Of a stretch of 64,000 nt of DNA, positions 7,599 through 52,084 are shown in pieces. The stretch lies in the NCBI GenBank assembly GCA_021018995.1, contig CM037586.1, forward strand, positions 7,290,328-7,354,327, in the 5' to 3' direction. How positions within the stretch are numbered: position 1 is the first letter of the stretch; every line of letters begins with the position of its first letter. The DNA comes from Chloranthus sessilifolius (lineage: Eukaryota > Streptophyta > Magnoliopsida > Chloranthales > Chloranthaceae). The notes below the pieces were generated by a model. It was given only the letters and a program-made list of their open reading frames with translations. It did no database searches and had not been told where the DNA came from. The position numbers and the translations under genes are program-made.

Positions 7599-7665
7599 GG
7601 CCCTCCACAAGCCTCACACCACACACCAAATCTCGTTTTCAACCTCGATTTCTGGGTTTCTGATT

Positions 7666-16990: not shown

Positions 16991-17158
16991 AGCCTTTGCG
17001 ATCCGCTAGGTCAGGTCAGCACTTCCATATCGCATAAGTGGCAAGGGTCAAGGTCGATTGATGTAAGAGTTAGTATAGGGTTACTAATTTGTTCACTATA
17101 GGTTTAATATCCTCAGGAGAAAATGGTCCAACTAATTTGTTCACTCTGGGGTTAATTT

Positions 17159-17341: not shown

Positions 17342-17517
17342 TAATGACTTCATCAGAAAATAGTCAAACTTTGAAAGTTCCCATCTATTTTAAGCATGGA
17401 AATCAGTGAAAATATACTTTTAACCATTTTAGCATAAGGAGATTGACCTCTTCACACTTGAAAGTGAACCACTTGATTATCTTATACCAACTCTTCTAAC
17501 CATTGCTTCTCGCCAGC

Positions 17518-18204: not shown

Positions 18205-18549
18205 CACTACAAAAATATCTTTTATTGGAGACGGATATTAGAGACGGCTTTTAGAGATAGTATCCAATAACCTTTTATTAGAGACGGCCTTTTTAAAAGT
18301 CGTCTCCACTAATTGCATTCTATACGTCTCCCGATATAAAATGATACATGGAGACTACTTTAACTGTCTCCATATGTATGAGATGGGTGGAACCTTTACG
18401 GTCGACTCGAAAGGCCGTCTCTGAAAGTGACGCTCAGATCAATAGGGATTCACTCGACCGCAGCATCTCGATGAACGCTCTCTCTCTCTCTCTATCTCTA
18501 AATGTGCCTAATCTGTCTCTCTCTCTTCCTATATAAATAGGAAATTAGA

Positions 18550-19275: not shown

Positions 19276-19879
19276 TTATTTGATTCTTTTGGGTTCTTAA
19301 GTTTCTTTGAAATCCCTGTTATTTGATTTTTATAGTATGTCATGAGAAAAAAATTAAACGATCCTAGCATTTTACAGAATCAGATCTACTTGCTGTTTAA
19401 GTTTTTTAAAAATGCATGATCTGTTATGTTTCAAGATCTTGAAGCCAATAGTTGTTGAATGCTGCATTTATTGTCTATTGGCTTTTTAATAAATTCTTTT
19501 TGGGCAATTATTCATCTGGAGCTGATTTTTCAATGAGATAAAGAAAAATAGTAGAGATGAATTTCGTTTGAAGATCTTTTAGCCAATAGTTGTTGAACTC
19601 TGCATTGTTGACGCCAATAGTTGTTGAACTCTGCATTGTTGAAGGTTAATTTTATCAAGCACTTTTCAGCTGCAAAATCTTGTGAAAACTAACCTCAACA
19701 GATTTCAAGCTCACAAGAATTTGTAACAACCATTTTTGATGGGATATAGTGGCTAAAAGTCACTTCAACGTGATCCATCACGCTTGTTGTTGCAATATTT
19801 GCTTACTGCTGGTTTCTGTCCCATTAAATAATCTCTTCTTCATACTAGTTTTTTTTAACACTAGAATACACTTTCACCC

Positions 19880-20690
19880 AAGGCCTCTTCTAGTTTTAGC
19901 TCTGATTGTCGGCTCATTGGTGGAATTTTGCATTGCTGTCTTTGATCTAGTGTGGGGGTTCTTGCTGAGCATTAATCGTTTATTTGCACTTTGCAAGACA
20001 TTTGTCTCCTCTTAATGTGTGGATGATGATTTGATCCATAGTCACAAAATTCTATGATTTTTTTGAAAAAAAAAACACTAAAATCTCTATTTAAGGTGTG
20101 CCGAAATTTTCCAAATTTAATTGAGACATATCATGCATATAAATTTCTATGGTTACATGGATTATGTAATTAGAGATGTATCAAACAACTTATAGTTTTT
20201 TGTTTTTAAAAATTTTATAAAAAGCATTATTTCTAACTTGGAATATATTATAATGCATTTTTATATTTTTATTTTTTATCTTATTGAATTGGCCCCATGC
20301 CGAATTATTGTCATATCTGATTTTGTGACTATGTTTTGATCCATGTTCTGATCCACAGTTGACTGCTGCCCACTGGGAAGGCAGTGGTGTGGTGTCCTTC
20401 TAGTCCTGGTTTCGTTTAGCGTAACTTCAATGTAAGTGCTTTAGTCAACCTCTTCTAGTTTTAGCTCTGATTGTCGGCTCATTGGTGGAATTTTGCATTG
20501 CTGTCTTTGATCTAGTGTGGCGGTTCTTGCTGAGCATTAATCGTTTATTTGCACTTTGCAAAACATTTGTCTCCTCTTAATGTGTGGATGATGATTTGAT
20601 CCATAGTCACAAAATTCTATGATTTTTTTGAAAAAAAAAAATACTAAAATTTCTATTTAAGGTGTGCCGAATTTTTCCAAATCCCTAGGG
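19880..20690. repeat. Direct duplication of about 235 bp inside CACTA 1
   Basis: The segment at about 19885-20120 (TCTTCTAGTTTTAGCTCTGA ... GGTGTGCCGAA) recurs at about 20450-20675 with very few changes. Between the copies lies AT-rich DNA with a GGCCCCATGCCGAATT word. High identity implies a duplication younger than most features around it. The 88-codon ORF at 19749-20015 runs into the first copy and is not supported as a gene. Confidence 0.85.
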
Positions 20691-20775
20691 TGGCCTCAAG
20701 GGTGGATTCGAACTCAGGTCTCCCGCTTCCTACAAGGTGCACGGCCATCACACCAAACCCCTTGAGGTTTAATAT
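20688..20775 (-). repeat. Possible tRNA-derived SINE remnant
   Basis: On the minus strand GAGTTCGAATCC resembles a pol III B box, and about 35 nt upstream lies TTTGGTGTGATGGCC, a weak A box. It is short and has no clear tail or target duplication. Two other tRNA-like fragments in the window (near 24479 and 34706) show the same architecture. Confidence 0.3.
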
Positions 20776-21666
20776 CACCTTTCAAGCTGGTGATCTTTCG
20801 AATCTAAGCTATCAATAGCTTGCCTAATAGTGTAATTTTCTGTGCCCATTACTCCCACTCATGTTGTGTGCTATTTATATTTGGTCATGGCCGTTCTCCC
20901 ACATGCTTACTGACACTAGCTCGTAATCGTACTTACTACCTCCGATCTGCGCTTGATTTTGCCATCTTATGTTCTCAAGTTCCATCTTCAGTTCATTGGT
21001 AATTACTTATTTTAATGCTGATTCAGATGGTTTTCCTTCCTCTTGTCAATTGCAATTATGTCTTTCTCGGAAGAATAAGGTGCAAAAGATTGCTTCTAAA
21101 ATTCATTCTGAAGGCAATCATGGTTGTCGTGGCTAGCTCCGCGATAAGTTCACGTAGTATCTCTTTCCTGAATTTTTTTAAGATTTCAATTTGCAAACAC
21201 ACCTAAAAAATAAACAATTAAAAATATATGTAGTAAAATAAAACCGAATTGGAAATCTTAGGAAGCTAATTGGGGAACCTACTTGTTAAAACTTACAATG
21301 ATGACTCTGAAAAGTCTTAATTTCCTATATGTGATATTATATAAATTGTTTTCAAGAACCTAGGCTGTTTCATTTATAACTTACTAAACTTTATACAATT
21401 TTTCCTAAAAAGCAACTCATTTACTTTATTGAAACCTGTGCACACTTTGATGGTATTAGGTGGTGTATTTGCTAAAGTTTTTTTTTTAATTCTGTGGAGT
21501 TTTTTCCTCAAAATCGAGGATGATATTTTAGATAAGTTAGATTTCTTGATTTTAACATGTGAAATTTCTATTCTACATTGTTGTTGATATATTATCACTC
21601 TAATTTTTGAATCGATAATTGTAATTTGTATTTGATAATGCTTTCTGATCACTTATTTTCATTCAG

Positions 21667-22891
21667 GGTAGCCTATAACTGGATCACAAAGTTTCTTGCA
21701 CTTGGTTGTTATGCCATGTTACTTATGCCAGGCTTTCTTCAGGGTGCGTATTTGTCAAGGTCTCTTATTCCAAACATGTTTGATGCCTTAATATTTAACA
21801 AATTAGTCCTCCATGACTGAGATTTAAGATGAAAATCTCAGTATCAGTCTCGGCATCGGTCTATGCCATTACCAAGACAACGTCTCGGGTATCAGCTATA
21901 CAATATGCAAAGTAAATGTATTGGGCGATACTAGAGACGATACATTTCTCTCAGGTGGCTTTGATCATGCAATGGACCACCCGATATGTCTTGGTATCGT
22001 CCAGGATTTTTATCTATCGAGTGCGTTTTAAGGCACTTACCTACTTGAACTTCATATATGTTGTAGTATTAATTCTTTTGTGACTGTAGGGTTAGTCGCA
22101 AGCTATCTAACTCGAGATTGGTATCGGAATCGGGTATTGGTCCATGGAGCTCCCGATACATCTCGACCAATACATGCCCGTATCGGCCGATACTGATACA
22201 ACTCCCCCGATACTGGTATCAAGGGGGTATTGGTATCGGTTTCCGGCGAATTCGATCTGTATCGGTAACGGCCGAGTTTTAGGCGAGACATGTTTCGATG
22301 ATGGATTGCCACTTGAACAATTTAGATTGTTCATAGATGTGCGCCACTGCCACATGACACAATAGTATACCACATTTTAATGGTGTAAGATCATTTGAAC
22401 ATCATTTTGGTGTTTTAATGTCGGCTAGGGACTCAGGAACCATTATCCCTTGGATGAATTGAACTTGGCCAGCAGAATTTTCATGGTTTCGAGGATGGTA
22501 TTAAAACTCGGCAGATACCGATACATGTCGGTTTCGTCAAGAACCGATACCACTATGATACAAGTATTGGTATCAGTATCGACCGATATTGTCTCGGTAT
22601 CGGCCGATACTGACCGATACGAAACATTTTTTCTTTTTTTTTTTAACTTTGATTATTAGGTGAGCTTTTAAGCTTGATATCCTTTATTGTGGTTATGAAA
22701 TTTTCAGCGAAAGATTTAGATCTCAGACTAGTGAATGACATGATCAGATGAATTCAATATAAATTTATTTATTACTTATTTGCTCATTTATTCTTGTGAG
22801 TTTGCTGTCAAAGGTACAAAGCATGGGGAGCTCTTCTAGGGCAACAGTTAGCTGAAAGAGACATCATCGTGGCATGCATAGACTACAAGTG
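21667..22891 (+). pseudogene. Captured fragment of isoprenylcysteine alpha-carbonyl methylesterase (ICME)
   Basis: Two exon-like pieces. The first (21667-21743, after an ATTCAG acceptor) reads VAYNWITKFLALGCYAMLL then MPGFLQ, the membrane-anchoring part that precedes the catalytic domain. The second (about 22814-22891, after an AAAG acceptor) reads [18 protein letters not shown] then VACIDYK, the oxyanion-region start of the alpha/beta hydrolase. In the family the exons between them carry the conserved GYYYFFSSQ and HGGAW-type segments; these are missing here, and GATAC MITEs lie in the gap. The catalytic Ser/Asp/His part is absent. The family demethylates prenylated proteins at the endomembrane. 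As a fragment in a transposon it cannot make an enzyme. The identity is from remembered motifs. Confidence 0.7.
22100..22640. repeat. Two GATAC-rich MITE copies within CACTA 1
   Basis: Copies at about 22110-22280 and 22495-22630, both full of CGATAC/GTATCGG words (CAGATACCGATACATGTCGG; TATCGGCCGATAC). A further diverged copy may lie at 21835-22010. They separate the two ICME exon pieces, so they either entered the transposon after capture or came with the intron. ORFs on both strands across them are artefacts. Confidence 0.6.
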
Positions 22892-23218
22892 TTTTCTCTT
22901 AATTCCGGAGTGATCATATCGTAGATTTGTAGTCTATCATACTTTGCACTTGTGTTTGATATACTTGTATAATAACATATAACTCACACCAAGGTTTAAA
23001 ACTCAATCAGGTGAGCTTGTTATTAGGGCTGCAAATGTGTCGGGATTGACTTGATGGATCGAGTGACCTGACTCACCGCAGGTTGAGTTTCCTGGATTAT
23101 AGAACCAAACTCGATCCGATCCAACTGGATTCCCTATCTTATATTTTAGCGCAACCTGACCTGACCCGGCCCGAGCTTTTTACTTTTTTGGGTCGGACCG
23201 TGTCCGGTTGAGGCCTGA

Positions 23219-25591
23219 AAAGAAACAGAAGCTGGAAGGCTGCCTCCAAATATTGCTGCCGTATTGGAGGAATTGTTTCAGAATTATCGGAATGCGGTAA
23301 GTACCTAGCTTAAGAAACAGAGATAAATTTATATTTCCCTTGCCTATGTGGCATTAGGACTTCAGATTTTTTTGCTTGTATTGACAAATGCGATTTGGAT
23401 ACCTGATATGGACTCTTGAGGAGTTATCGTGTTTATTTGTGCTAAATTTGAAGCTGGCAAGTTCTATGGTAATGATTGCTTCATCATTTTTCCTCTTTCT
23501 TCTATTTATGTTTTTCTTGGGTGCATGACCAAGTTTATTCAATAAAGAACAGAGTGAATTGGAGGTTCCAGTAGCTGAAGGTGTCCTTGAGAGATTGTGA
23601 TGCAAACTAGAAATCAGAATCTATGCTTCACCAGTCCCCATTAAAAGTCCAAGGAAGAGAAAGAGAGAGGCAAGATGAGGGGGAAAGACGAAAAGGAATA
23701 ACAGACCAGAGACTCATGAACCAGCAAACCTATATAATGGGTATCAATTAAAAGGCTCAACAGGGCTAAAAGAAGGCACATGCTCAACTTTAAATGATTG
23801 CATGAAACCATGACTTTATAAGGCACATGATTCCCCATGAACATAGGGGGTGCTTTACAAATTCTTGCCTGTATTATGTTCTTTACCATCACCTATTTTG
23901 TTGGGATTTTTTGGTTGTTAAGTTGATTAGTTGTGGTTAATATTAGTTTGGTGTTCACCTATTTGGTAGGAGTCTTTATTTTAAGGATGTTAAGTGTTTT
24001 TTAGGAGTTCTATATAGAGTGGGACCAAGATTGTCAAAGGCACTAGGGCAGGTCCCAAGTGGCGGATCCCCTAACAGCTAAGCTAGGCATAGGCAGGGCT
24101 TAGATGGTACCTAGGCAGTGAAGCCTAGTAATGCTGCAACTTTTTATTTATAGTTGACAATAGGTATCTATAATAAACGATAAATATGAAAAAAATAATA
24201 AATAATGTTTAAAATATTATTATATATTCTTAAGTATCATCCGCCATGCAAAATTGTAGGTTGAAAGAGTATAGTAAGAACTAACAACTAGCAAGCAACA
24301 CTTAATAAATAAAACAGACAAAAAACAATACAAGTATGGGTTTTTGGTTTTTAAGGATATTTATTACTCAATGATACAATTGAAATTTTTTTAGAATAAA
24401 TTTCAGGATAGTTATTTGATCCAATTTCGTTGTCATTGATCTACGAAAGATCAAAAACATAGGGTTCTTTAAGGGATTGGGCCTTTGCGCAAGTGGTAAT
24501 GCTCTAAAGCACATTGTTTGAGGTTAGGGGTTTAAATCACACCTTTACACATTTTTTAAGAGATTAAGGATATGATTGTGATATGTTCTTCATCTGAGAC
24601 TCTACTTGAGTAACTAACAACTTTTTGAGACTTTGTCCTAAAAAGCCTAAATTCAAAGAATGAGATCTTTGATATTGCTGTAAAATATTAAGAATGGATC
24701 CAACAAAACTTCCACTTGTTTGATGTGTTAAAGGTTAGAGAGAAATTATATTTTGAAGAGTTCAGGGGAACAAGAACAAACTTGAAAGTTGCATTAAATT
24801 TTCTGTTTCAAGTGTTGATAATAGGCGAACTGCTTTTTGAGTGACATATCTTCATCTTTTAAGTAACTGTTTTATACTATCGCTGCAATTTTATGCTTTC
24901 GCTTGAGATTTGAAGGGATCGCCTTTTCTCTTTATTAGAATCAGATTAAACTTTCAAAAAAATTGCCATGGCTTTATGTGTTTAGTGCTCTAATGATACA
25001 TGAATCATGTCAAATTATCTGTCTTCACAAAAATCACTTATGATGATTCCCAGCCATGGCATTTAAGTTAGTTGAGCTCTGCAAATAATTGGAGAAATAA
25101 TAAACTATTGTGAATTTTTCAATTTAGAATTGTAAACTTGTATACTGCAATTGGAAAAAGGATTGATGTTTACTGGGGTGCTTCACCATTTGATCTAGTG
25201 TATCAGTTTTTTATCTATTTCTTTGAGGCATCTCTATCCTTTCAATACATAATGTCGTATCTTTTGTAACTTGTCAGGTTTTGCAAAGTGGAAATCCCAG
25301 GGCAAACGAGATTGTATTATCAAACATGACTGTTACATTTAATCGGATTTTGTTGGACGTAGAGGTTTGACCACTGGTTTTTCAGCTGTCAAGTTATTTG
25401 TTATAGATCTGATGTGCTTGGATGTGTTACATCTATAATCACACTTTCTATTCCTATGGGCCTCTTATATAAGAAAGCACTACATTTTTGCAGGAACCTT
25501 TTACCTTTTCGCCACATCACAGAGCAATTCGAGAGCCTTTTGACTATTATACATTTGGTCAAGATTATATCCGGCCATTGGTTGATTTCAG
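23219..25591 (+). pseudogene. Captured fragment of plastid glycerol-3-phosphate acyltransferase (ATS1-like)
   Basis: Three exons with GT-AG borders. About 23219-23296 reads ETEAGRLPPNIAAVLEELFQ then NYRNA; 25278-25364 reads [20 protein letters not shown] then FNRILLDVE; 25494-25591 reads [20 protein letters not shown] then [12 protein letters not shown]. The frame is continuous across all three (phase 0). This is the region just before the HX4D acyltransferase motif of the soluble plastid enzyme that makes 1-acyl-glycerol-3-phosphate. The catalytic motif and everything after it are missing. The exons themselves contain no stop, which implies a fairly recent capture or little decay. A (TA)n stretch follows the last piece. 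No start codon or transit peptide is present. Confidence 0.85.
24479..24545 (+). repeat. tRNA-like fragment (possible SINE head)
   Basis: TGCGCAAGTGGTAATGC resembles a pol III A box region, and GGGGTTTAAATCACACC stands where a B box would be. No anticodon arm can be folded convincingly and no tail is evident. Confidence 0.25.
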
Positions 25592-25680
25592 GTGGTTCAA
25601 TTGTATCGATATTTTTTACCATTGTTTCTTGTGTCAAACTGTTGAGAAATGCAATGTTTAACAATGTCGTACACTGTTTG

Positions 25681-25684
<4 letters not shown>

Positions 25685-25758
<74 letters not shown>
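25685..25758. repeat. (TA)n microsatellite
   Basis: Long run of TA dinucleotides inside CACTA 1; it produces the spurious IYIYIY protein of the 25414-25764 ORF. Confidence 0.97.
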
Positions 25759-25762
<4 letters not shown>

Positions 25763-26359
25763 AACAATATTTCAGGAGGCCGTTTCCATGGTTAAATCCA
25801 TCGAGGACCCGAGTAAGCGGGAGGTCGATCGAGGAAGCTAGTGAACGAGGCGACGAGATAGCATTACTTACGTAGTTGTTCGCTTTCTTGTCCACGGAGA
25901 CGGCCATTCAAGAATGTGACTCTAGGAATGGATCGCTTTGATTCATTTTGAATGATTTTTTCATGAATCAAAATTTGGCAGAATGAATGATTTTTCTATA
26001 ATCTGAAAATAAAAATGGTTCCAATCAATTAAAGCAGTTCAATCCAGAGAAGGATCTCTCAATTGTGCATTCTTTCTGTTTTAATAGCTGGAGGTATCAT
26101 TATATGATGTCTACACCATTATCTTGTTCTCGGAATATAAAAAATTGCTTTAAAAAAAATATTAAAAAAACGCATTAAAAAAAATTGCATTAAAAAAAAA
26201 TAGTATTTAAAAAAAAAATTTGCATAAAAATTGTCGACGTAAATTTAAAAAATATATATATAGTTATATATATATTTTTTAATTTCATAAAAAAGTCACT
26301 GCCAAAAAATTTTCATAAAAAAATCACTGCCAAATATATTTTAAATATATATATATTTA

Positions 26360-26684
26360 AAGAAAAAAAAAATGTTGGAGACGGCTAAAAGCCGTCTCCA
26401 ATAATAGGAGGTCACTTATTGGAGACGGCTTAAAGCCGTCTCCAATAAGTATTGAAAATAACTAGATGATTTATTAGAGGAGTCTCTAACATAACTTTGG
26501 AGACGGCCATATGCCGTCTCCAATAACCTTGACTATTAGGGACGGCTTTCATTTGGTCTCCAAAGATAATGGAGACGGGACTATTTGAGACTACATGGAA
26601 GCCATCTCCAATACTATTGGAGACGACTTAGACAGCTTTGGAGATGGCCAAAAGCCGTCTCCAATAAACACATTTTTTGTAGTG
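26360..26684. repeat. Right subterminal repeat block of CACTA 1
   Basis: At least eight GGAGACGGC or GCCGTCTCC units in alternating orientation, several as hairpins such as GGAGACGGCTTAAAGCCGTC. The same units, fewer and more diverged, lie at the left end (18225-18420). Confidence 0.85.
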
Positions 26685-28860: not shown

Positions 28861-29499
28861 AGCAGTCATACCGTTGTATAAAACAAGAGGTTAGAGATTT
28901 AAACCTTGATAGAAGCATATGAGATTTAAATTATGATCACGATCACTTTAGGGATGTGTGTCCCATGTAATTAATATTTGACTGTCCGATATGTGCCAAG
29001 ATCTTAAGATCTAATGTATGAAAGATTGGAAAGAAAAATGACCTTTATTATATAAATCAAGGCAGTCAAGTGTGTGACGTTTACGCTCTCAAGATAAAGA
29101 AAAAAGGTATAAATTGTAATCAATTTTATCAGGCCCTAACAGGCCCGGTCTGAATTAGGTCTAGACTAGGGGTTATGCAGGTCAAGCCTATTAGGGCTTA
29201 AGGCCGGGCTTGCACTACGTGAAAATGATATAAAAACTACTGTAGCAATATAAAAAAAAAACTACTGCTTAAGACAATAGTCTAATAATCTACTGCCTAA
29301 AATCATAGTAGTCTAATAATCTACTGCCTTAAACCATGGTATAATAACCAAACCCTTTCAAGTATCGAATTTGGGCCGACCACGAGCCGACCCATTCAAC
29401 CCACAGTCAAATTTATATATCGATTCCCCTTATTTTTTCATTTCATTTTCAACCCAAGCTCCTCTCCTCTCTCCTCTTTCCTCTCTCCTCTCTCCCTCT

Positions 29500-29960
29500 G
29501 CAAAACATATGAAACCTAGAAATGCTCCGACTGAATTCGAACACTTGAATTCAGAGATCTGCCAAGATGTTTAATTGGTGAAGCAGATGCAGAATCTCGA
29601 AAGCCCACAAGTTCTCGCTTCGATGACCAATGCGATCTCCGACGTCGCTCAATTCCGATTGGTCCTCCAAACCCTAGGCAACCGCCCCGATCACGAGATC
29701 GTTGATTCTGCCAAACTGAAGATCGTAGAGATCAATGCGAACCTCTCAAAAATGCTTGAAGAAATACATTATCGGCACACCCCGATGGGGTCAGCAGGCC
29801 GACAAATAAAAGCAATGCATTTGGGATGGCTCGGGAGATCGGAGGATCCGTCCAATCCATTTCAAAGTTGTTATATGGTTTAGATGGATCAGAGGATTTG
29901 AGATGGGTCGGGAGATCGGGAGCCGGTGAATGCTGATTTAGGTATGTTTTATGGTTTTGA
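29500..29960 (+). pseudogene. Captured exon of unassigned gene (helical, first exon-like)
   Basis: The ORF at 29575-29883 opens MVKQMQNLESPQVLASMTNA, continues through VAQFRLVLQTLGNRPDHEIV and ends its conserved-looking part with NANLSKMLEEI near 29766. It is GC-richer than its surroundings and preceded by a CT-rich leader (29455-29500), so it looks like a captured 5' UTR plus first coding exon. The sequence is amphipathic and probably forms helices. I cannot name the family. After residue 64 the reading frame looks non-coding. Confidence 0.45.
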
Positions 29961-31955
29961 TCTTGTGGAGTGGAGGATTTGAGATGGATTGCAACCTGGT
30001 GAATACAGATCTAGGTATGTTAGGGTTTCCCTTCCTTTTATTTTAGTTTATGTTTGTTATTTTTTTTTAAGTTTTCTCACCATGAAATTTTATCTTTCTG
30101 AGCGGTATTTTCTATTTACATGTTTTAATCTGTTTATTTTTATTTCTTAAATAATTTTATTGACAGATGATGAATATCGTATTCTATAAACCAATAATTT
30201 TCTTTTGATGCGATGAGTTGCATAGATCCACACGAGATTTCTGATTTATTATTCACTCTTTTTTTTTGTTTTTTTTTGTTTTATTTTTTTACGTTTTTAA
30301 ATTCGGGAATTACATAGGCTGGTAATCGAAGTCGATTTACATGCTACATGCTCAGTGATTACTGATCCGTTCTTCATGTTGTAAGCTAAGTGTTAAGCAC
30401 AGTGACCAAGTCTAGGTACAAGAATAAAAAGCCTCTAGGAATATACGGGAAAAAATGTTAAATTTCGGCAATTTCTGTAAAAAGGGAAAATTTTAAATAT
30501 TAATAATTATAAAAAAATGTATATGCTGTAACCAAACAAGGGTTATAAATGGGATAAAAATCGAGAAAAATCTCTTATTCTTGGAAAAACAGGTTTATAA
30601 CACGTTTACTTCAGAAAAACGGGAATGATTCGATAAAACATTTTTTTTGCTTTTTATTTTATTATTATTTTGTTTTCAAAAAAATGCATTAGTGTTTTCA
30701 ATCTGAGCTTAGTTTTAAATCTGAGCATAGTTTAATGTAAAATGGTTGAAATGGAGAAACTAATCTTAGTTTTAAATCTGAGCTTTGTTTTAACCACTCT
30801 TACGGGTACATAAGACCATTGTTATGGTTTTCAACCACTGTTATGTTTACATAAACCTGTGCTCAGATTTAAACCACTGTTGAAATGGCGACACTAAATT
30901 TTTTACATTAAACCGAGCTTAGTTTTAATCCTGTAGCTTACATAACGCCACTGTTATGGTCACATAATTCTCCTTGTCTTGAAGCTGAAGTGAAGGGAAG
31001 TTGTGTCCTGTAGGTACTGGGGTGTGATGCCTGTGTGTGAGGCATCGATATTAGGGTGATTGTTGATATACTTGCCAAGTCCAAACTTATAATGCATGAG
31101 TCCTAACTCGACACAGTCTTTCTTTGTAAGTTCAACTCAAGTGAACTATGCTCGCTCTTAGAAATCCATAGTAGTCATTGTCTAGCGCCTAGCTCTCAGT
31201 AAGTCCAAACTATAATCCATATTGCAACAAAGTAGAGGAAGAACATAGTCTAAAGCGTAATCGTTAAAATATTTACTAGACTATGAGCTCTCGATTACAC
31301 TTTACATGGCCAAGCCACTCGTTCCCATTGGTCCTATGCCCTTAGGAGTAAAAAGCTGAATCGCTACTAAACCAAGGTCCAAACTTATTCTCCAAAGTTC
31401 AATTAGATTTTACTTGTTTCCTTTTCTGGCTAATTATCCCCACATCATCCAAAACTGCCATAGTCCACCAGCATCTAAATTAATATTTCTGTTGGTAATG
31501 ACAAATAAGGACATATGGCTTGCCATAGGGATTTTTTTTGGAATTTTTATGATCGTCAACCTAATACTAGCCTTTTCATATGAGCTTGGGACCGATATGG
31601 CGACTTTATTTGACAGGATTTTTTTTGTGTGGTTTTGTTGAACATTTCCCCATGTAATTCCATCCTGCATGCAAGGAGTCAAGTTAATTGTTTTGTTGCA
31701 AATGAATATGCTAATCTTTTGTTGTTCATGGAAGTAGAGCTTGGACCGGTAACAGTTTTTTTATAAATTATTTGCAATTAAGGAATTTTTTAATATTCAT
31801 ATAGTATTTAGTGGAGATTTTTTATATTTCAAGTTTACTTTTATAGTTACATCTTAATAAAATCATTTTTGTCATAGGATCATCACCTTCTCCATCTTCA
31901 AAATGATTCTTATAATATGTAGCATCACTTATTGTTGTATTGTATAATAATGCAG

Positions 31956-34199
31956 GATTTACGTTCTATTACCCCACTTGACAAAACTAAAGAAGACATT
32001 TTGCTTTTCTTCAAACTTTACGACCCTGAAAAAGAAGAGCTTCGGTATTCATTGATTCTTTTTGTTTTTTTCCCCTTGCCATTAATGTTATCTGATCCAA
32101 TTGTTTGTGACTTGAGGCTCTTTTTCTAAATTGAAATCTCAGGTATGTGGGGAGGCTCTTTGTGAAGGGTGCAGGTAAACCAGCTGAAATTTTAACAAAA
32201 TTGAATGAATTGGCTGGTTTTCTTCCAAATGAAGAAATTGAACTTTATGAGGTCAGGATTCCATCCAATTTTTAGATCTGTAGTCCTTATTGTATGTGTA
32301 AATAATTATTAATGGAAAATTGTGACCCTTTTCTTTTTCTGAGATTGTCAGGAAATAAAGTTTGAGCCAAGTGTCATGTGTGAGCACATTGACAAGAAAG
32401 CGACATTTCGTGAGCTGTAAAGATTATTGCATAGGTCTTGTGCTTTGTGGTAGATCTTATGTAACAAAAGCACCTGGTATATATTATAGATCTGCTGTGT
32501 TGAACGCTTGGTATCAATGTTTGACCCGGAGATATTTGACTCTAAGCTTTCTGAAGCTTATTATTCCCAGAGTCTGCTGGACTTGTCTAATACATGTGCA
32601 TCAACAATACGCATGTTCATCACTAAGTTGCATGTTAGACTTCTTCGTGGAATATGGCCTCAACTGGAGTGGTTGAATTTTCTCATTTCTTATGCACAGC
32701 TTGAAGATGGGGACATCATTTGTTATCAGAAAGCCCGTCCAATTGAAAATGATGGCCAATGCCGGTATCCTGATGTGACATCGTTTTTGGAATATGTGCA
32801 TAATCGGCAGGTACTCTTTGATAATATTGTGGAGCGTTATGAATCAAGCTAATCAGGAAGAGAGATCCCTCGTCTCTTCATATTTCCACTGAGATGATAG
32901 AAGGAAAGCCAGAATCTCGAAAGCTTATAGACTTCTGAAGTCAAATGAATCTTTGATTCCCATTTAATTTTAGGTTGATCATCATCATAGTTTTAGTAGA
33001 TGATTCATCGAGTTTTAGAACTATGGATATTATTATTCAGTTATCACATAGTTTTAGTAGCCACCATTTTAAAGTCCATGTCATTGGTAAATGAGATAAA
33101 CTGTTACATGTTTTCGAAGTGGAGCGATGTTAAAGTTTTGAGAGTTTACATTGTTAATTGCTGATTGGTGCTAGATAATGATAGGCGAGGGCTACTCTTA
33201 GATATAAATAAGATCTGAAATGAATTAGTTTGTTGTCCCAATTTGTTCTCAAATGAGTTAGTCTTAGCTATTTTGTTATGGTGCCTTAACAATTTGGGGA
33301 TTGAATAGTACACTAAGAGATAGGTAATTAATTATGGGAAATGCTAACCCTTGAAGCTGGTTTTCTTGGTTCAGGTTGCATCTTACTTTTCCTTTTGTAT
33401 ATTTTTATGTCATTACAAATTATTTGAAGATCCAGTCTGGTTCACTATTCTTTGAATTTTTTCGTAGTTAATGAGTGAAGTTTGGATATATCATTTTTAA
33501 GATGCTCACATTCTTATTGATGGATATAATGTCTGAGATGCATATGATGGAGCTTTTTGACATGATTACAAATAATTATTGAATATGGAATTCTGGATAC
33601 CTTGATACCATAAGTTCTATTGGTTCCCTTCATCCTTGAACCTTCAAAATTCAGTCTCTGCATGATGTGATGCTTTAGGTTGTTCATTTCCGATCTCTGG
33701 AGAAACCGAAGGAGGATGATTTCTGTTTGGAGCTGTAAGCATTTAATGCTATTGTTTCTTGTTTTATTTATATTTAGTGGCTTTAAATGATTGAGCAACT
33801 TATTGTAATTCATCCGAATCAACCCTTGGCTTGGAATATCTTCCTTATTTTATGTATTCTATCATCTTTGAAAAGTTCAGTGTGTCATATAATATATTGT
33901 GTGTTACTGATTTATTCTAATTTGTATCCTTCTTGGGCAGACATCTGATATCTTGTATTATGAAGTTTTGGACATTCCTCTGCCGGAATTGCAAGGCTTA
34001 AAAACTCTAAAAGTTGCTTTTCATCACTCAACTAAGGATGAAGTGAGTATGTGACCAGGACAGTTGTCTTATTCTAGACCATGTTAGAGTTACTGTTTCT
34101 TATTTGAACTGAGTTAATTATTTTCAGGTAGTAATTCACTATATAAGACTTCCCAAACAGAGCACTGTAGGGGACATGATCAATGACTTGAAAACTAAG
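31956..34199 (+). pseudogene. Captured C-terminal exons of ubiquitin-specific protease UBP12/UBP13
   Basis: Exons with GT-AG borders: 31956-32044 (DLRSITPLDKTKEDILLFFK...), 32143-32251 (YVGRLFVKGAGKPAEILTKL...), 32352-32411 (EIKFEPSVMCEHIDKKATFR), 32701-32810 (LEDGDIICYQKARP ... FLEYVHNRQ), 33679-33734 (VVHFRSLEKPKEDDFCLEL), 33941-34042 (TSDILYYEVLDIPLPELQGL...), 34128-34199 (VVIHYIRLPKQSTVGDMIND...). These are the ubiquitin-like/ICP0-binding region of the USP7-type deubiquitinase. The MATH domain, the catalytic USP domain and the exons between 33734 and 33941 (about 50 codons in the family) are missing. The join from 32411 to 32701 does not splice cleanly: a stop follows TFREL at 32418. No catalytic residues, so no enzyme. 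Confidence 0.88.
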
Positions 34200-34699
34200 G
34201 TGAATTTCAGAATTTTACTTGCATTTCTAATTTATCTTTTGGGCATGGGTATGTTGATTTCTATCTAATCTAGATATAAATGATTAACACCATCCAATCC
34301 AATATTAGTCCATGGTTTCTTATTTATTTATTTTATTAAAGATGGAATGCACTTATAGCTTAACTAGTCTGTATAATCTATTTGGTATGTGTGGATCAGG
34401 CTTCTCATTATATATACTAATAGAGGCTGAAATGTCGGATGATGCGTAATTATATGTAGTTTTGAAACAAGATTTTTTTTTTGTAAAAAAAATTCCATTT
34501 GAGTATCCAATTATTATTAAGCAATAAACCTCCAAGTATAGTGTAGAAAGTGGCCAATGCAAGGAAGAGCAATTGGATGTTTTGTATAATTTCAAAAGGC
34601 AGCATTATTGCTCTTGGTGCAGAGGTCTGAAATGGGCATGGGTGCAATATGAGATGAAGGATGTAGTAGAGGTACGAGGGTTTGGGGCCGGACAGGGTT

Positions 34700-34780
34700 T
34701 TGGGCCTGTAGCTCAACTGGAAGGTGGACAATACTACAATCTTGACGTTGCAGGTTCTAGCCCAACCTACCCATTAAAGA
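34700..34780 (+). repeat. tRNA-derived SINE-like head
   Basis: GCCTGTAGCTCAACTGG fits a pol III A box, and GGTTCTAGCCCAACC about 45 nt later fits a B box. The inter-box distance is right for a tRNA-like promoter. The flanks show no acceptor-stem pairing, so this is not a tRNA gene. A related partial copy (CTGTAGCTCAATCAG) is near 38928. Confidence 0.4.
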
Positions 34781-35094
34781 AAATGTGTTTAGGGTGGCGC
34801 TGGGTTACCTTTGTGGAGTATGCATTGAAAATGGGCAGAGAAGAACTGGTACAAGGTGCTCGATTTCGGCTTATTGAGGTTTATGACTTATAATGGATGA
34901 GGACAAGGGTGTGGGAGAGAGCTTAGTTGCTACTAGAGCTGAGGAGATAGATTTGGTCTATTTTTGCCGATGGTGGTATGAAGAGTAAGTATTTGAGAAA
35001 GTAGTGGGTGCTTGTTCCTTGGATTTTGAATAGGTGGTGTGTTAGAGGGTTGTCACTGAGACAAAAGAATTTGGTTAGATGCTTCATATTTTTC

Positions 35095-35480
35095 TTTTTT
35101 TTTTTTAGAGAGAGAGAGAGAGCAAGAGAGGGAGAGAGGGAGAGAGGGAGAGAATCTCGAAGGAGATCTGCGTTGAAGGTTGGAGACGACGCCATTGAAG
35201 CGGAGATCTATGTTGAAGGTTGGAGCGATGCCATTGAAGCAGAGATCAGCGTTGAAGGTTTTCTTTTGATCAAGATCGAGTTTACGAGCCGTCGTTTCAC
35301 CATTTGCTAGATGAAAATCAGTTTTATTGCCTTCGCTCTTTGATCGCCTCTCGCCGTTCTCCAATTCCAATCACCAAACCCTAACTTTTTCTCGCGGTTC
35401 CCCCCTCGCGACATCTGTGATCGCCTCTCGATGTTCCACTCTGGTAAGCGATTGTTCAAACAGATCTGGATTTCTGCTCG
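35095..35480 (+). other. GA-rich tract and possible captured promoter/leader in CACTA 2
   Basis: A (GA)n-type tract (35107-35155) is followed by two or three units of GTTGAAGGTTGGAG...GCCATTGAAGC (35172-35258) and a pyrimidine-rich leader (35320-35450) ending ACTCTGGTAAGCG, which looks like a splice donor. It resembles a captured 5' end of an unidentified gene. The ORFs on both strands here are low-complexity. Confidence 0.35.
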
Positions 35481-38400
35481 TTGGCTGCTTCACACTACTT
35501 CTTTCACTGGTACGGTGGTACCTTTATTTTTATTTTTTTTATTCCTTTAATTTTTATTTTTAGTTTATATCTTTAATAATTAGGAGGTTAAATGCTTTCT
35601 ACTCTTTTAGATCTAATCTATGTGAGGCATGAATTTATGGTGTTTGGTTATGTTCTCCATAGATCTAAGCTTATGAGTATTTTGATTATTAATTTTTTCT
35701 CATAAATAGGAATTTTTTTTTATAAATATTTTATGCTATAGTTTTATCTTTCTTACTTGACACTTGGATCTGGTTGTTTGATCGATTGGATTTTGCTTCC
35801 AAAAGACTGATTTTTTCTCTTCTCTAGGCTCTGCCACTAAATTCTCTATTTTATTTTTTATATAAATTTTTGTTTATCTTCATTAAGTTGCGACATCTTT
35901 CTTTGAATACAGCTATACTGCAATGAATACCTTGATCTCAGTGAAGTAACAGGGAGTTTACAATGCCTTGATTGATTTAGATGGTTATAGGGTAAAAAGA
36001 TTCGAGTAATAGAACATTGATATTTTATATTAGATTAATGCATCTTGCACCATAAAATTTGCGAATTAGGACATGTGTGATTTTTACGTTACCTAAGATG
36101 CTATCTTGGAATGACTCCCTTTTATGTGTGCAAGGAATGACTCCCTTTTATGTGACCTCCTCTCAAAGCCGGATTCTTCCCATAAGTCCCTTAATGGAGG
36201 ATTTATCCATATAGTCTACCATTTGATTTGTGGAGTGAAGTAGATCAAATTTGGGAGGTTGCAACATTGTACGACCAAATTAAAATAGTTGGAACTTGGA
36301 AAGATAAAAGAGATGTTGGCATGATACAATAAACAATGATTATCAATTATCCATAAATCCTTGAAAATAGTAGCAATGATGCTAGCTATTGCATGCTTGT
36401 CGTCGAAAATTATGACATGGCTTAGAAGGTTGCTTCCCTTTTCCTTCCATTTCAAAGAGACCTTGTCAGGTTGTCAAACTGTTTTATTTCTGCTTTGTGA
36501 TCTTGATGCTGGTCGAAAAAATTTTGGAAGTTTATGTGCTTATATGATATGGCTTGGAAGGTTGCTTCCCTTTTCCTGTGATATGGCTAGCAAGATTGCT
36601 TCCCTTTCCTTCCATTTCATAATTCATAGAGACCATGTCAGGTTGTCAAAATTTTGGAAGTATTTCTGTGTTTTTTATGTGGAACAAGGTAGCAAGTCTT
36701 ATTAGTTATTATGTGTCTTTTATGTGGAACAGGGTAGCAAATCTGTTTGAATAATGGAAGCATATTTATCTGAATGTTTGTATTGTACATGGATGGAAGA
36801 TAACTTATTTATGTTGATTTCACTAGTCTTCAACCTAACCCATTGATCATTTTGCACATTGAATATTTTTTTGGCAGTCAATTTTCCTTAATATTTTTCA
36901 TGTTTTTTGTTTTTAGCATAGTTTCTAATTGGGTATCTGTATTCTTTACGGAGCGCCAAATCAGTAAAAGGTCAAAAGTGTACTTTCACTGATTTGTGTG
37001 CTAATGCAAAATCAACTAAATAACTACCTTCTAAATTTTTGTTAGGTATCTTAGATTCCTATATATAGATTAAATTTTTTTAGTTTGTTATTTTAAAATA
37101 ATTTACTTGTATCAACTAGGCGTAGAGTCTATATTTTATAGGTTTGTCAAGTCAGATTCATCGATACACGTCAGACTGTAACACCCTTTCGTTGCCTATG
37201 TAATGTTATGGGATCTCAGAGAATGTTACGTACCCTTTCTAACCTTCAATCTCTCTGGAACCACCTAATGTACCATTTCTGCCCCACCGACAACCTAATT
37301 CATTAGCTCTTGTTACGACGGTTAGCAATGGAAGCTTGATTAAATAAGTGGCGCTGATAAGTGGAGTTCCTGCCGAATATTCTGCTCTGGCACTCCTACA
37401 ATTTAGGTTACCCAGACACTTGTACTCCAAGCTCTTCAGAAATGACTTGTAAAACTATCATCTAATTTCTGACAAAAAAATTTTCTAAGTTCTATGCCTA
37501 GTCGTAATGATTGACATAGTTTCTCGTTGTCATCATTTTTAGTTTATCTCCGATCTACTTTCGGGGTTTCGGGGTCATGTACATAGCTAGGACTTTCGCT
37601 CTAGTTAGCAGCTCCGTATCAAAGTCATCATCCATATAGATCTCGTCAATAACTCAGTATCATCAGTATCGATCTCGATTTGTGAACAATTATTTAATAA
37701 AAAATGTGTTGATTTCAAAACAGCTCAGTATGATTCAACTCTGTTGTTTTATAGTTTACCCTCTTAATAATTAAAGAATGTTAATTAACATTCTATTTTT
37801 GTCTTTGTTGTAGGCATCATATCCTGGGGCTGCTCATGCATCAGATATATTTGTTGTGTGATTATTTTTTATTTCAAATAGTTACCCTATTTTTTGCAAA
37901 CTTCGGAGTTACTTTCAGCCATTGGTTTAAAAACTGCACTAGCATGCTGGTTTGACTCAAACTGGCAGTTATGGTGGTCCAGCTTGGACCCAAGAACCTT
38001 TTTAATGGTTTTATTTGGGTCTAACCTCTATACTAGCTGGTTTTATTAAACAACTGGCTGGTTCAGCGTTTTTAACATGAACCTGGTTCATGAATTTTTT
38101 ATTTGCCACCCTTAGAAGATCCTTTAGAAACCAAAGGGCTTATCAGGAAAGATTTTCATAAGCTTGATAATCTCATGATGCCGGTGACACCTCATTAATC
38201 CATTTAACTTGAGAGTTTGTATAAGGTACTCTGTGCTATATATCACCATTAACATAAAAGTTTGTATTAGGTACACATACACTCTGACTTGTACTGCCGA
38301 CCAATCTTTGTCCATCTGCAAGGTCAGCAGTGCAGAGCGTACCTGCAGTGCACAGATTGCATGATCTCAAAAATTTACATGCTTCCCAGGATTGATTGAA

Positions 38401-39780
38401 TCATGACGGCGGGCTGAGATTGGTCCATGTTTTATTGGCACTACATGGCCATTTACCTACTATAAATTCTTAGAATATATTTTATGACATTATTGAGTGG
38501 ACCTAGCATAGCTTTCATGGCCATTTTCCTCAAAGTTATTTTAGTGGACCTAACATAGCTTTCATGGCCATTTAAAGCTGAAAATGGCCCCAGTTTCACT
38601 TGAAAAAATGGGTGGCTAAACATGGTTGCTACTAAATCTCCATCCCAACTGATCAAATAATTACCTATTTACCTTTTCCTGCGAATTATGGGTGCATCTA
38701 AACCTAACAATTGCTAATAGGTCCATGCTCCTCCCTCCTTTTTCAATATCTGATCGTCAATTGCTTAGAAATGGCCTGCTAGGGTAACTATTTGGCAATG
38801 TATATAGAACTATAAACACATTCTGCATTTTCATGATGGAATATGTTTCAGTTTTGTGAATGAACCTGTGTCTAAATTGTGCCTCTATTTTTCCATGGCA
38901 TTAACAAATAAATGCTTGTCCATCTGTAGCTCAATCAGTTAGCAACCTTTATATTGTTCTACAATTTCTGGGTGTTTGAGGAGCTGTTGTAATTCTACAT
39001 ATTTTTTGGCTAAATAAGCAAGCCTGAATTAAAAAAACTTTCAAGCATTTACAACTGATCAGAACACATACCCTCTTGATGCATCAATGCATAAATCAGA
39101 AATTAGGAAGACTTTGTAGGCAATCGTCATAACACTGTCTAACAGTGGTGATTGTATGGCCACTGTCCCAGAATATGCATCCCATAATAACCAGGTATAT
39201 ATATTTACCATTCAAAAAGAATATTTTAGATTTTGAAAACTCAAGTGGGTTCTAAATAAATTATCAGGTAATTTTGTGTCTTAACTACGTGTGATCTATC
39301 TTTAGTGCATCTATGAAAAATGTCTTTTTAGATTTGTGATAGATTCTTTCAATATTTTTTTAATGTCTTAGTACTGGTTAATTAAAAAAAGATGTCTTAC
39401 TACTGCGTATAAACCTCCTTTTCCGATAAGGGTAATGGGAGCTCACCTTAGGTATAAGATAAAGCCCTCACTCTCGCACTATGACATTGTTACTATGACC
39501 AAAACTAGCCATCAGACTCGTCAACCATTCTCTTCCTTAATGTTAAGGCCCCACCAAAGATGAAGATCGTAGTACCTTATATTACTTTCTCATCGAACAC
39601 TACTTGAAGATCTTTGGGCATTTTTCTGTTTTTTCCTATTCCAGAATATCCAAAATCTAATAGATACAGCTATCAAGAATGCAAAACATTATTCCTTCAA
39701 TGAATGAATGAATCCTTGGATTTTTGTAGCTTTTGGATATAACTTGTGTTTCATGAAGTGCTATGCATATCCAATTTTGT
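35480..39780. other. Interior of CACTA 2 with no recognised exon
   Basis: AT-rich intron-like DNA. A threefold repeat of GGTTGCTTCCCTTTTCCT with TCCATTTCA occurs at 36425-36625. TTTATGTGGAACARGGTAGCAA occurs twice near 36677 and 36718, and GACCTARCATAGCTTTCATG twice near 38501 and 38545. No domain was recognised in any ORF. Confidence 0.5.
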
Positions 39781-40345
39781 TTTCTATTTTTCTTCAGCCA
39801 ATGCTCTCCCTGTTCCATATTTTAAAGCTCCATTCAGGAACAGCGCAGTCCATTGATTGGTAATTCATTACACTCTTGACCTCTTTTAGAAAGTATTTCC
39901 AGTTTTTTTATTTGTTTGTTAGGTAATCTGAGATTTATTTCTTTTATCTTATAAATGAATAATGGAGCAAGCTGATACTTAGTTTCATTCAATTCTTTGC
40001 TTTTGTTTATAGGACAAGAAAATGCTCTCCAACAATCTATTAAAGGTATCTCTTTTTCAACCTCTTATGATCATATCTGTGTGAAGCATTTATACCATAT
40101 TCGCCATTACTGTGGTTCATATTTCTTGCTTGTGGTCATTTCGATATATCAATTTCAAGTGCATCATTTTTCTGAGTCTCTCTTGAACTGTTGATTTCTA
40201 TTTGCAATTACTCAATTGGAAATATTTCAGCGGTTGACAATTAATTTTACTTCCTCTACGATCCTTTAGATTCGTTTGGATGCTGATGTTAAAGTAATGA
40301 TATTGTCTACTTATCATAGGTCGTAATGATGTTGTTGAGCCATTG

Positions 40346-40953
40346 TGATGGAATCCCCAATGAGCGAAAGACTAACGGTTGTCGAGCGATTCGATGAATC
40401 AATGCTAATAGTACAAGCATTGCTTGAAGTTGCTTCACACCAGTATGACATTGCTTCAATGACATTTAACCCGCACAACCTTGAGTTAACTTGACTAGAA
40501 GGTGATTCTTTTTGCATCAATGGCCGAATTGGATGATAAGTCTAAATGGATTATGATTGTAGAGTTCTAATCTAACAGGGGGTCATATGGATTTGAAGCA
40601 TCAGCTGAAGCAGAGAGAAGAAGAAGGCTACAAATTTTTCGTTCTCTATTTGAAATACTTGTTTCATTGGTGAGCCTTCTGCCCTTTCTGCTTTGGAAAT
40701 TAGAGCGTGCCCAGATTTGTAATACTACACACTGCATTTAAGTTCTCCCTTAATTTTTTTACAGATGCTTTTTGAGGAATATATCACATACAATGCTACT
40801 GGATATCATCTTTGAATTGCTTGTATTTTATTTTCAAAATTATCTATGGCTTCTTTGATTGAAGATTTTCCTGAACAGGTTAGTTATTGAGTTCAATATC
40901 CACAAGATTATGAGGACCTTTCAAAAGAGGACGCCAAGGAATTTAAGCAGACC
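40346..40953 (+). pseudogene. Captured fragment of a transportin/importin-beta-like gene (MOS14/TNPO3 type)
   Basis: Three pieces: about 40346-40492 (ERLTVVERFDESMLIVQALL, then ASHQYDIASMTFNPHN); 40579-40669 (GSYGFEASAEAERRRRLQIF, then RSLFEILVSL); and 40879-40953 (VQYPQDYEDLSKEDAKEFKQ after a disrupted VSY). The HEAT-repeat content and the order fit the nuclear import receptor of SR proteins. In the third exon the fourth codon is TGA (40888-40890) where an Arg codon CGA would be expected, a CpG-type transition. After KEFKQT the homology stops abruptly. Borders GT-AG are kept at 40670 and 40878. N- and C-terminal parts are absent. The family assignment is from memory and is less sure than UBP12 or Cpn60. 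Confidence 0.6.
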
Positions 40954-42217
40954 ACATCACCAGATATGGTAATGATTGATGGCTTCATGGCTGAAATCTT
41001 GTTTCATCAATTTACTTATAGTTCATATGTTAAAAACCAAGATGGTCAACTGATGGTAAAGGTGCCACTGTTCTCTCATTATTACTTAAGTGAGTAAAAC
41101 AAAAGTTACTGTTATTATTTTTTAATCTAGGAAAGTACAAAGTAGATGAAAGTCCCAGTTATATTCTTCAAATGCCTTCAGCATTCCTATTACACAATAG
41201 CAGCAGAGAAAGCGCATTACAAGTTTAAGAGTTTAGAGAATTTCTTGGTAAATTATATCTTTAAGTCATTAGTTCCAATAGGGTAAAACTACTTAATCAT
41301 GCAGCAAGTTGAAATCCCAAAAGTCCAAATCTTATTGTCCCTTTATGAAATGTATTTGCAGCATGGGCTGAACAGTGGGCAGGTCAATCTCACCACACCA
41401 AAATGGTCAATCGTATACTAACTCTTTTGATATTAATTTGCGTTTATTTTAAACTTCTTGTTTTATTGTTTGGGTTTATTTTTCACCCTGGTTTATATTT
41501 TCGCAAACGTAGCCATAATAAATTTGTCTTGATCATAGCAGCTACTATATATTCTTTCTATAACTCCCACCCACTTCTGACTCTTCTGGTATTACTTGTC
41601 CCTGCCTTTTTCAATCATCTTTTATTAGTCCTGTCTTATTATTATTTTAGTTTCGTTTTACTTAAGCATAATATGTTTATTTTTTTGCAAATGTTTTTTC
41701 TTACATTAAATACAGAAATCTGGCCAATGATGATTTCACAAGGCACACGTCTCATTAGACAATTTTGCTAATAAATCTGGCCAATTTTGCTCCCACTTAT
41801 TAGACAGCAAAATAATGATTCCACAAGGCACACGTCTCATTAAGTGATCCGCATACCAAATCATATGACACATGGGCTACTTACCTACGCGTCCAATGAC
41901 ACTTGGATTAGGTGAATAGAATTGAGTAAACTGGTGGTGCCCAGGTCATCAATTGTGTAGGTGCGGTGCAGGCCACAAGGTACAAAAGGTCATTTTCTAG
42001 ATTGATATTTTATTTAATGATTTATTTCTTATTATCAGAAATAGGGTTGTGGTTCTATCTGATGGATTATATGGGCTTATCTTTAGCCTTCTTTTCTGAA
42101 AATTTTTGTTGAATTACATGCATAATATCTATGTCTAGAGTTGAATTTCTTATTAGGGTATATATAGTACTAATTTGGTGCCTTTGTTTTCTCCTTATGC
42201 TATTTGAAATGCAACAG

Positions 42218-42458
42218 TGGAACAACTAGTGGGGTATTTAAGAAGGCTAAGATTCAATCATCTCCATCCCAATCTACATTCAAGGTGATTACCAATCACC
42301 CAAATTATCAACATAATTTTTGGGTTTTATTTCTTCCCAATTCAAACAAGTGTTGCAGATTAAAACACCTAAAATTATCGTTTTATATGCAAGTTAGGAA
42401 GGAGAAATTTAGTGACAGAATCACAGCCCTTCATCAGCTAGTATCACCCTTTGGGAAG
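42218..42458 (+). pseudogene. Captured fragment of a bHLH transcription factor (bHLH110/112/123-like)
   Basis: Exon 42218-42284 encodes GTTSGVFKKAKIQSSPSQST then FK and ends at a GT donor. The second piece, 42393-42458, encodes VRKEKFSDRITALHQLVSPF then GK and ends at GTACAT. This is the basic/helix-1 start of the atypical plant bHLH group whose signature is F-K-V-R-K-E-K-x-x-D-R-I-x-A-L-x-Q-L-V-S-P-F-G-K. The second helix is absent. The acceptor before VRKEK reads TGCAA|GTT instead of the expected CAG|GTT, so splicing would shift by one base. No DNA-binding dimer could form from this piece. Confidence 0.8.
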
Positions 42459-42623
42459 GTACATACTCTTTAGATTGGCAAAAGTCTCTAGTATCATTAT
42501 TCTATGGGGAATACACCCATAAAGAGAATACAAAAATTGTTATCAAATTATTTTATTTTTTGCAATAATAATAAGGGTACCCTTATTTACAATCCAAGAT
42601 TATTTTCAACGCGTGTTTCACGT

Positions 42624-42840
42624 GCAGCAACTAAAGACGAGATCCAAGCCAGAAAAGAAAGAGTTGGCTGAGATTGACTCTATTTACGATTCCAAAAAGC
42701 TGGCTGAGAAAATCGCTAAGCTTTCTGATGGAGTTGTTGTTATAAAGGTTGGGACCGCACAGAGACGGAGCACGAGGATCGTAAGCTTCGGATTGAGTAT
42801 GCAAAGAATGCTACTTTCGCCATAGAAGAAGGATTGATTC
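42624..42840 (+). pseudogene. Captured fragment of plastid chaperonin Cpn60 alpha
   Basis: Three successive frames carry the family sequence. 42628-42654 reads TKDEIQAR; after a small deletion the next frame reads KKELAEIDSIYDSKKLAEKI then AKLSDGVVVIKVG; after a second shift near 42757 a third frame reads [20 protein letters not shown] then AIEEGLIHR. This is the apical/intermediate region of the RuBisCO-binding chaperonin alpha subunit (the [23 protein letters not shown] stretch separates it from beta). Two frameshifts and the absence of both ends make it a dead fragment. It is the last gene piece before the right subterminal repeats of CACTA 2. Confidence 0.88.
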
Positions 42841-43254
42841 ATAGAATAAATTTGATTTGATTACGTTCTTTGTATGTAATGTCCAATGAAAGGGTAAAAA
42901 AAGCGAAAAACAACGCAGACAAGGCATAGGACAAAGGAATATTTTATTTATTGTTACAAAATAAAACTATTTTATTTATTGATGTGGTTAGTAACAATTG
43001 GTGTGTTATAAGGAAATTCATCAAGTGGTGCACAATAAAATATTGGTGTGCGCGGAACATCCCTTATTTGGCAAGTAGTAGCTTAATACCTTATAAAGAA
43101 ATTCACTATATTAAAACAAAAAAGCATTAAAAAAAATATTAAAAATATTGTATTAAAAAAAAACATTCAAAAAAGCATTAAAAAAATAGTATTTTAAAAA
43201 AATTTGCATAAAAATTCGTCGATATAAATTTTCTTTTTTTTAAACAAAATTCTA

Positions 43255-43481
43255 TAAAAAAACCACTGCTCAAAGCAGTGGTGCTTTTTCTATGATTGTT
43301 AAGAGCAGTTGTTGTTGAAGTTCATAAACCACTGTTTTGTATAGTGGTAAAAAAAAGCCACTCCTTTTTTTATAACTGTTTAGGGTAGTGGTTTTTTGAA
43401 AACAAACCACTGTCAAAGACAGTGATTTTATGAAAAAACCACTGTTTAAGGCAGTGGTTTTTTTGGCTTTTTCACGTAGTG
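43255..43481. repeat. Right subterminal repeat block of CACTA 2
   Basis: About seven AAACCACTG / CAGTGGTTT units, several as hairpins (AACCACTGTTTAAGGCAGTG; ACCACTGTCAAAGACAGTG), ending in the terminal TTTTTCACGTAGTG. Confidence 0.85.
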
Positions 43482-43599
43482 TTGGATGCGCTTTAGGTCC
43501 GAACTACGACACACCTGGCCCAATATTCAAATTTTGGAAAGAATATAAATTATATGTTAGAGCATTATATATACATGGATGAAGCTAGGCAAATGAAAA

Positions 43600-44996: not shown

Positions 44997-52084
<7,088 letters not shown>

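Follow-up and report, generated by a model that had tools for sequence, protein, structure and literature searches.

The 64,000-nucleotide stretch of the Chloranthus sessilifolius genome analysed here (C3:7290328-7354327 of GenBank assembly GCA_021018995.1, which holds 2,168,743,587 bases on 32 contigs; hereafter the window) harbors at positions 29213-43481 a complete 14.3-kb CACTA element, whose limits can be read directly in the sequence. Its ends, target-site duplication (TSD), sister copies and the likely donors of its cargo bear out the proposal of an initial annotation, made from the letters of the window, that this is a CACTA transposon with fragments of unrelated host genes inside. We interpret it as a Pack-CACTA, a non-autonomous member of the CACTA (En/Spm) superfamily, that was probably assembled stepwise with a final fusion, a reading to which we assign a probability of about 0.94. 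The phenomenon is a known one, and it is unusually well documented here.

Ends, family and sister copies

The element is bounded by CACTA-type terminal inverted repeats and a 3-bp TSD (Table 1), and both the 13-bp matching termini and the identical TTG flanks described in the initial annotation proved to be exact. A chance origin of these ends was ruled out by dinucleotide shuffles of the window, none of the 200 yielding a 13-bp CACTA pair whose 3-bp flanks agreed (2 pairs appeared once the flank condition was dropped). The ends further recur as a dispersed family: the 13-mer CACTACGTGAAAA is found genome-wide 1664 times in forward and 1669 times in reverse orientation (3333 occurrences), versus 54 (22 + 32) for the reversed control pattern. 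The several hundred base pairs of subterminal repeats characteristic of CACTA elements are clear at the right end, where the block 43240-43481 folds with a z of -5.65 and none of 200 shuffles folded equally well, while the left end displays short direct repeats. Of the hairpin-rich subterminal blocks that had been claimed for both ends, the right one therefore stands and the left one does not (DNA fold z -0.77).

Full-length sister copies lie at C7:78221131-78235567 (14437 bp, TSD TAT) and C13:88776812-88793350 (16539 bp, TSD CTA), and the pairwise Kimura two-parameter (K2P) distances amount to 0.0147 between the window and C7 copies, 0.0178 between the window and C13 copies, and 0.0161 between C7 and C13. 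A search of the genome DNA with the UBP12 part of the element returned 26 matches, with all 18 candidates scored, and two of these matches belong to the full-length copies on C7 and C13. On C9, a relative with the same left end (C9:34735897) matches at 94-97% up to window position 37027, the match ending within the fetched stretch, and pieces of a long relative are found on C11:41.63-41.65M. The stretch 29213-30960 is also present in the C7, C13 and C9 copies. The full copies with their own TSDs demonstrate past movement of the element, and, together with the excess of the 13-mer, they show the recurrence of the TTG/CACTA ends whose absence had been set beforehand as grounds for refutation.

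Pfam detected no transposase in any of the 42 open reading frames (ORFs) scanned, which comprised all those of 60 aa or more overlapping the element, and the UBP12 domain was the sole match above the cut-off among them. Judged on these frames, the element is devoid of transposase coding sequence, as is characteristic of Pack-CACTA. Genome-wide, Transposase_21 yielded 1762 first-look candidates, and the 150 that were scored and listed were all above the cut-off, many being stop-free across the matched part; this abundance indicates that candidate helper transposases exist in the genome.

Captured gene fragments and likely donors

Five fragments of host coding DNA were identified inside the element, and likely donors for four of them were located on four contigs (C1, C3, C6 and C10). 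The UBP12/13 exon pieces, whose joined sequence matches USP7_ICP0_bdg with an E of 8.4e-43, have their likely donor segment at C1:197805756-197811761, where the gene continues with exons on both sides, to near its C-terminus; on sequence similarity, C1 appears to be the best donor, though not the sole relative. Three losses have shaped this segment. About 1.55 kb of the donor is missing in this lineage at 32988/32993, about 210 bp including an exon are gone at 33805-33811 from the window, C7 and C13 copies but retained in C9, and 187 bp at 31721-31728 are absent from the window copy alone among the three full copies. Divergence of an intron was ruled out as the cause of the 33805-33811 gap, which is a loss common to the window, C7:78M and C13 copies, and a working UBP12 was ruled out by the missing exons.

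The FKBP42/TWD1-like capture begins at the ninth base of the inferred reading frame of its donor, which lies on the element's own contig C3, about 170 Mb away, and whose exon 3, situated mostly past the captured part, matches AtFKBP42 (2f4e) with an E of 2.8e-17. The TNPO3-like donor on C6 runs on into further exons, and its joined exons match PF24138 (E 1.2e-8), whereas the joined transportin pieces of the window itself reach only E 0.0006, under the cut-off; no PDB match was found for the transportin piece. The bHLH donor on C10 possesses the next exon, which backs the fragment; since its Pfam HLH match is weak (E 0.013), the bHLH name of 42006-42625 is in part our assumption. The Cpn60 fragment, recognised on the peptide read across its frameshift, matches the plastid alpha subunit 5cdj with an E of 1.4e-5 and is presumably of the plastid alpha type. 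A candidate Cpn60 donor at C10:22.62M was ruled out because its match extends into the right-end block (72%), which marks it as another CACTA. The four host genes named by the initial annotation (UBP12/13, a transportin, a bHLH factor and Cpn60) are thus all present, with the FKBP42/TWD1-like fragment as a fifth that it had missed; among its four, parental genes could be proposed for UBP12/13, TNPO3 and bHLH and none for Cpn60.

Introns are kept wherever a captured piece covers more than one exon, and the pieces match their likely donors at 92-98%, which together argue for capture from genomic DNA and rule out, through the retained introns, a retro-copied cDNA as the source. Since the four likely donors are spread over four contigs, the captures appear to be separate events, and an ordinary gene cluster was ruled out because the likely source genes are located elsewhere. 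In both respects the earlier suggestions, namely genomic capture and several events, agree with our results. The cargo shows decay in the form of frameshifts and missing exons; the captured fragments are decaying passengers and no working genes.

All five identified fragments are sense on the + strand, toward the right end. The same orientation is seen for the plastid glycerol-3-phosphate acyltransferase (GPAT) piece in the second CACTA element of the window (element B, described below) and for a class I tRNA synthetase fragment (E 7.2e-9; positions 5966-6184 of L033, C7:126000500-126010400) beside the right end of a relative of the element, whose left end was not found. The same-strand order noted by the initial annotation consequently holds for the five fragments here but is not backed as a general rule, as the end pair L049 carries Ion_trans on the minus strand (E 4.6e-8) together with a plus-strand ORF that we take to be bHLH-like, its only Pfam match being weak and unrelated. 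Of five end pairs retrieved to compare strands, L047 alone showed an exact 3-bp flank match, so that L049 is possibly not a single clean element. A general strand polarity is therefore not supported, L049 being probably mixed and the sample too small to exclude a lineage bias. We regard as improbable the idea that this CACTA lineage retains its cargo in a single orientation, reading in the sense direction from the left end toward the hairpin-rich right one, with a left-end transcript still spliceable; if true and general, it would point to selection or to some strand-dependent filtering of captured genes. No article on the strand order of captured genes was found, judged by titles. Beside a further right-type CACTA end, a minus-strand frame (L003, 2499-2828) is presumably helicase-like, with no Pfam match.

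Stepwise assembly and alternative explanations

Modules of the element recur separately in the genome. A module search of the middle region (about 35.1-39.7 kb) gave 51 matches, with 40 of 1278 candidates scored. The query 39700-42860 gave 44 matches, with 40 of 144 candidates scored, and among these, 8 places on the TNPO3 side stop at 41439-41441 and 9 on the bHLH/Cpn60 side start at 41784; the remaining matches are full copies, donors and places that break elsewhere. Three module carriers were read. The carrier at C14:56.0M holds the equivalent of window 41784-43429 plus its own right end, and those at C4:30.9M and C1:69.6M hold the TNPO3 side and a right-end block, with no bHLH or Cpn60 match; up to that block, the latter two resemble each other at 89% over a stretch unlike that of the window element. 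Given the sharp common boundaries at 41441/41784, the element seems to have arisen when two older Pack-CACTA lineages fused, and the simplest reading of the sequence would be that a TNPO3-carrying element joined a bHLH/Cpn60-carrying one at 41441-41784.

In the mechanism that we propose, the element would move by cut-and-paste through transposase from relatives, and would grow stepwise whenever neighbouring elements with compatible ends are excised as a single unit including the intervening DNA. The joining at 41441-41784 would be the last large step, and the fused element would then have come to occupy at least three sites, where the three full copies are observed.

Alternatively, a single old element might have picked up the pieces in series, through gap repair or template switching and without any fusion, in which case the single-module carriers would be later deletion products. 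Internal deletions are indeed frequent in the family, and the short overlap of the bHLH and Cpn60 pieces at 42623-42626 suits template switching. However, 8 + 9 places with the same sharp boundaries, and the stretch, unlike that of the window element, which both TNPO3 carriers read have in common as far as their right-end block, are not expected from independent deletions, and we consider this route unlikely. A more radical alternative holds that the ends belong to two neighbouring CACTA elements, or match by chance, with an ordinary genomic segment and its genes between them. Such ends are very common in the genome and the left and right subterminal blocks are unlike, but the TTG at both flanks, the location of the likely source genes elsewhere and the presence of the unit end to end on C7 (14.4 kb) and C13 (16.5 kb) with different TSDs leave this explanation with virtually no credibility. 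Lastly, frameshifts, stops and lost exons in the window copy and others, as well as the mixed strands in L049 (one of its two names being our assumption), make it very improbable that the element serves as an active exon-shuffling locus, with transcription of its pieces starting at the left end and splicing yielding chimeric products kept by selection, even though all five identified pieces lie in sense orientation on the same strand, many splice sites remain intact, and exons of soybean Tgm-Express1 are described as spliced into host transcripts in excerpts of its report (PMC1947982).

Several observations weigh against a stepwise-assembled Pack-CACTA element with a final fusion. The fusion is deduced from the boundaries; the source of the 342-bp seam was not located in the genome, with a 219-bp part recurring at C7:11.99M, and some places among the 40 of 144 candidates scored break elsewhere, for instance two whose match begins at 42004. 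In the TNPO3 carriers at C4:30.9M and C1:69.6M the outer ends are degenerate, and no donor of the Cpn60 fragment was located in the genome. No transposase was tied to the exact CACTACGTGAAAA ends, either among the Transposase_21 candidates of the genome or among the element's ORFs of 60 aa or more. The term donor denotes the best-matching locus that goes on as a gene, and C6:147.2M, too, is 81-90% similar to a portion of the UBP12 segment. Furthermore, in the block 31735-32985 the window copy is nearer to the UBP12/13 donor (K2P 0.0145) than are the C7, C13 and C9 copies (0.0186-0.0247), a pattern not explained by a simple copy tree, although a small deletion is common to the window and C7 copies. 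Gene conversion with the UBP12/13 donor is a possible explanation for this block.

Table 1. Features of the 14.3-kb CACTA element (window coordinates)
Feature	Position	Strand	Remarks
Left TSD, TTG	29210..29212	.	Read directly
Left terminal inverted repeat, CACTACGTGAAAA	29213..29225	+	13 bp; exact match
Left subterminal block	29226..29350	+	Repeats of ~31 bp at 29262-29347; short direct repeats only
Open frame of 102 aa	29575..29880	+	Source not recognised
UBP12/13 gene segment, introns included	30963..35050	+	92-98% to donor, four blocks
UBP12/13 exons	31956-32044, 32143-32251, 32352-32409, 32700-32810, 33679-33734, 33941-34042, 34128-34199	+	
Mosaic of modules recurring separately in the genome	35151..39700	+	No gene recognised; recurring breaks near 35151, 36340, 37025, 37829
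FKBP42/TWD1-like fragment, parts of exons 1-3 and two introns	39831..40339	+	92.8% to C3:177816729-177817245
TNPO3/importin-13-like (transportin) fragment with introns	40393..41162	+	93.3% to C6:25752432-25753200
Putative seam between two Pack-CACTA lineages	41442..41783	.	8 ends at 41439-41441, 9 starts at 41784
bHLH gene fragment, two exons and intron	42006..42625	+	92-94% to C10:96819387-96820298
Cpn60 fragment with frameshift	42626..42850	+	GroEL/Cpn60 E 1.1e-14 on peptide read across frameshift
AT-rich right block	43118..43231	+	Counterpart in element B at 26139-26246; homology score 61.5
Right subterminal hairpin array, CCACTGCTTAAAGCAGTGG type	43240..43468	+	Fold of 43240-43481
Right terminal inverted repeat, exact reverse complement of CACTACGTGAAAA	43469..43481	-	13 bp, perfect
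Right TSD, TTG	43482..43484	.	Matches left TTG

Neighbouring features and known elements

Element B is a second complete CACTA (18205-26684, 8480 bp, ends CACTACAAAAA, TSD GCT) and is inserted in a Copia element on the minus strand. When the Copia flanks were joined across element B, gag-pre-integrase was restored over the junction (E 4.6e-9, with X typed at two stops), and Pol_BBD was matched in the surrounding Copia element with an E of 2.4e-17. The cargo of element B includes plastid GPAT exons (on the joined exons, 1iuq E 3.6e-40 and GPAT_N 2.5e-23), along with pieces that we take to resemble isoprenylcysteine methylesterase (ICME) and a UreH-like protein, with no Pfam match. Comparison of the element B block 26139-26246 with the AT-rich right block of the 14.3-kb element gave a score of 61.5, versus maxima of 23.5 in 300 shuffles and 25.5 among 462 window controls, while the outermost ends and hairpin motifs of the two elements differ despite this common block. 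The combination of a common right block with unlike ends hints at an exchange of ends between CACTA lineages.

No gene was recognised at the insertion site of the 14.3-kb element. Just to its right, aminotransferase exons are present on the minus strand at 44997-45410 and 48358-48699 (Aminotran_1_2 E 4.7e-4 and 1.3e-12), presumably of an LL-diaminopimelate aminotransferase. For the 102-aa frame near the left end, a homolog search returned 6 candidates, none with E<=0.001. An Rfam scan at the gathering threshold gave 0 matches. Elsewhere in the window, an inverted 90% repeat (3950-4649 / 7569-8246) holds a similar 102-aa frame in each copy, with no Pfam match, and a small palindromic element with CACTACAAAAAATAAG ends lies at 17155-17345, parts of it or similar ends being found near 1931, 60801 and 62750.

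Outside the window, the CACTA end pair L048 (C1:76426125-76429980), whose flanks form no exact TSD, contains a Neprosin activation-peptide fragment at 2456-2680 (E 8.6e-12). Excerpts of a study of Chenopodium CACTA elements likewise describe captured gene fragments, including Neprosin, and place them in the 5' region, upstream of the TAD domain of the element's own coding sequence (PMC8978399). The closest single element, going by the excerpts of its report, is soybean Tgm-Express1 of Zabala and Vodkin, a 5.7-kb CACTA in an F3H intron for which chimeric transcripts were shown (PMC1947982). Both elements have CACTA ends and enclose sequence from five unrelated host genes, exons as well as introns, but the present one is 14.3 kb long and has no recognised gene at its site, and its likely donors, its sister copies and carriers of its modules have been located. 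The Pack-CACTA and other Pack-TYPE elements of Arabidopsis, rice and maize are, in the excerpts of two papers, non-autonomous elements with terminal inverted repeats and gene pieces (PMC8903248, PMC13317346); according to the former, the number of distinct loci per element is highest in maize Pack-CACTA, acquisition is modelled as the joint excision of two neighbouring elements with the intervening DNA, and rice Pack-Mariner includes fused 'AB' elements (PMC8903248). The Chloranthus element resembles these in being non-autonomous, in holding several loci and in its joint-mobilisation or fusion reading, and differs in its genome and in its size of about 14 kb with five gene sources.

These fragments resemble real exons with splice sites and call for caution in gene annotation. 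A single genome displays the complete mosaic together with two sister copies, each flanked by a TSD of its own, as well as likely sources for four of the five pieces and carriers of only one half. The order of capture and the fusion model of Pack-element growth are directly testable here through the dating of each junction.

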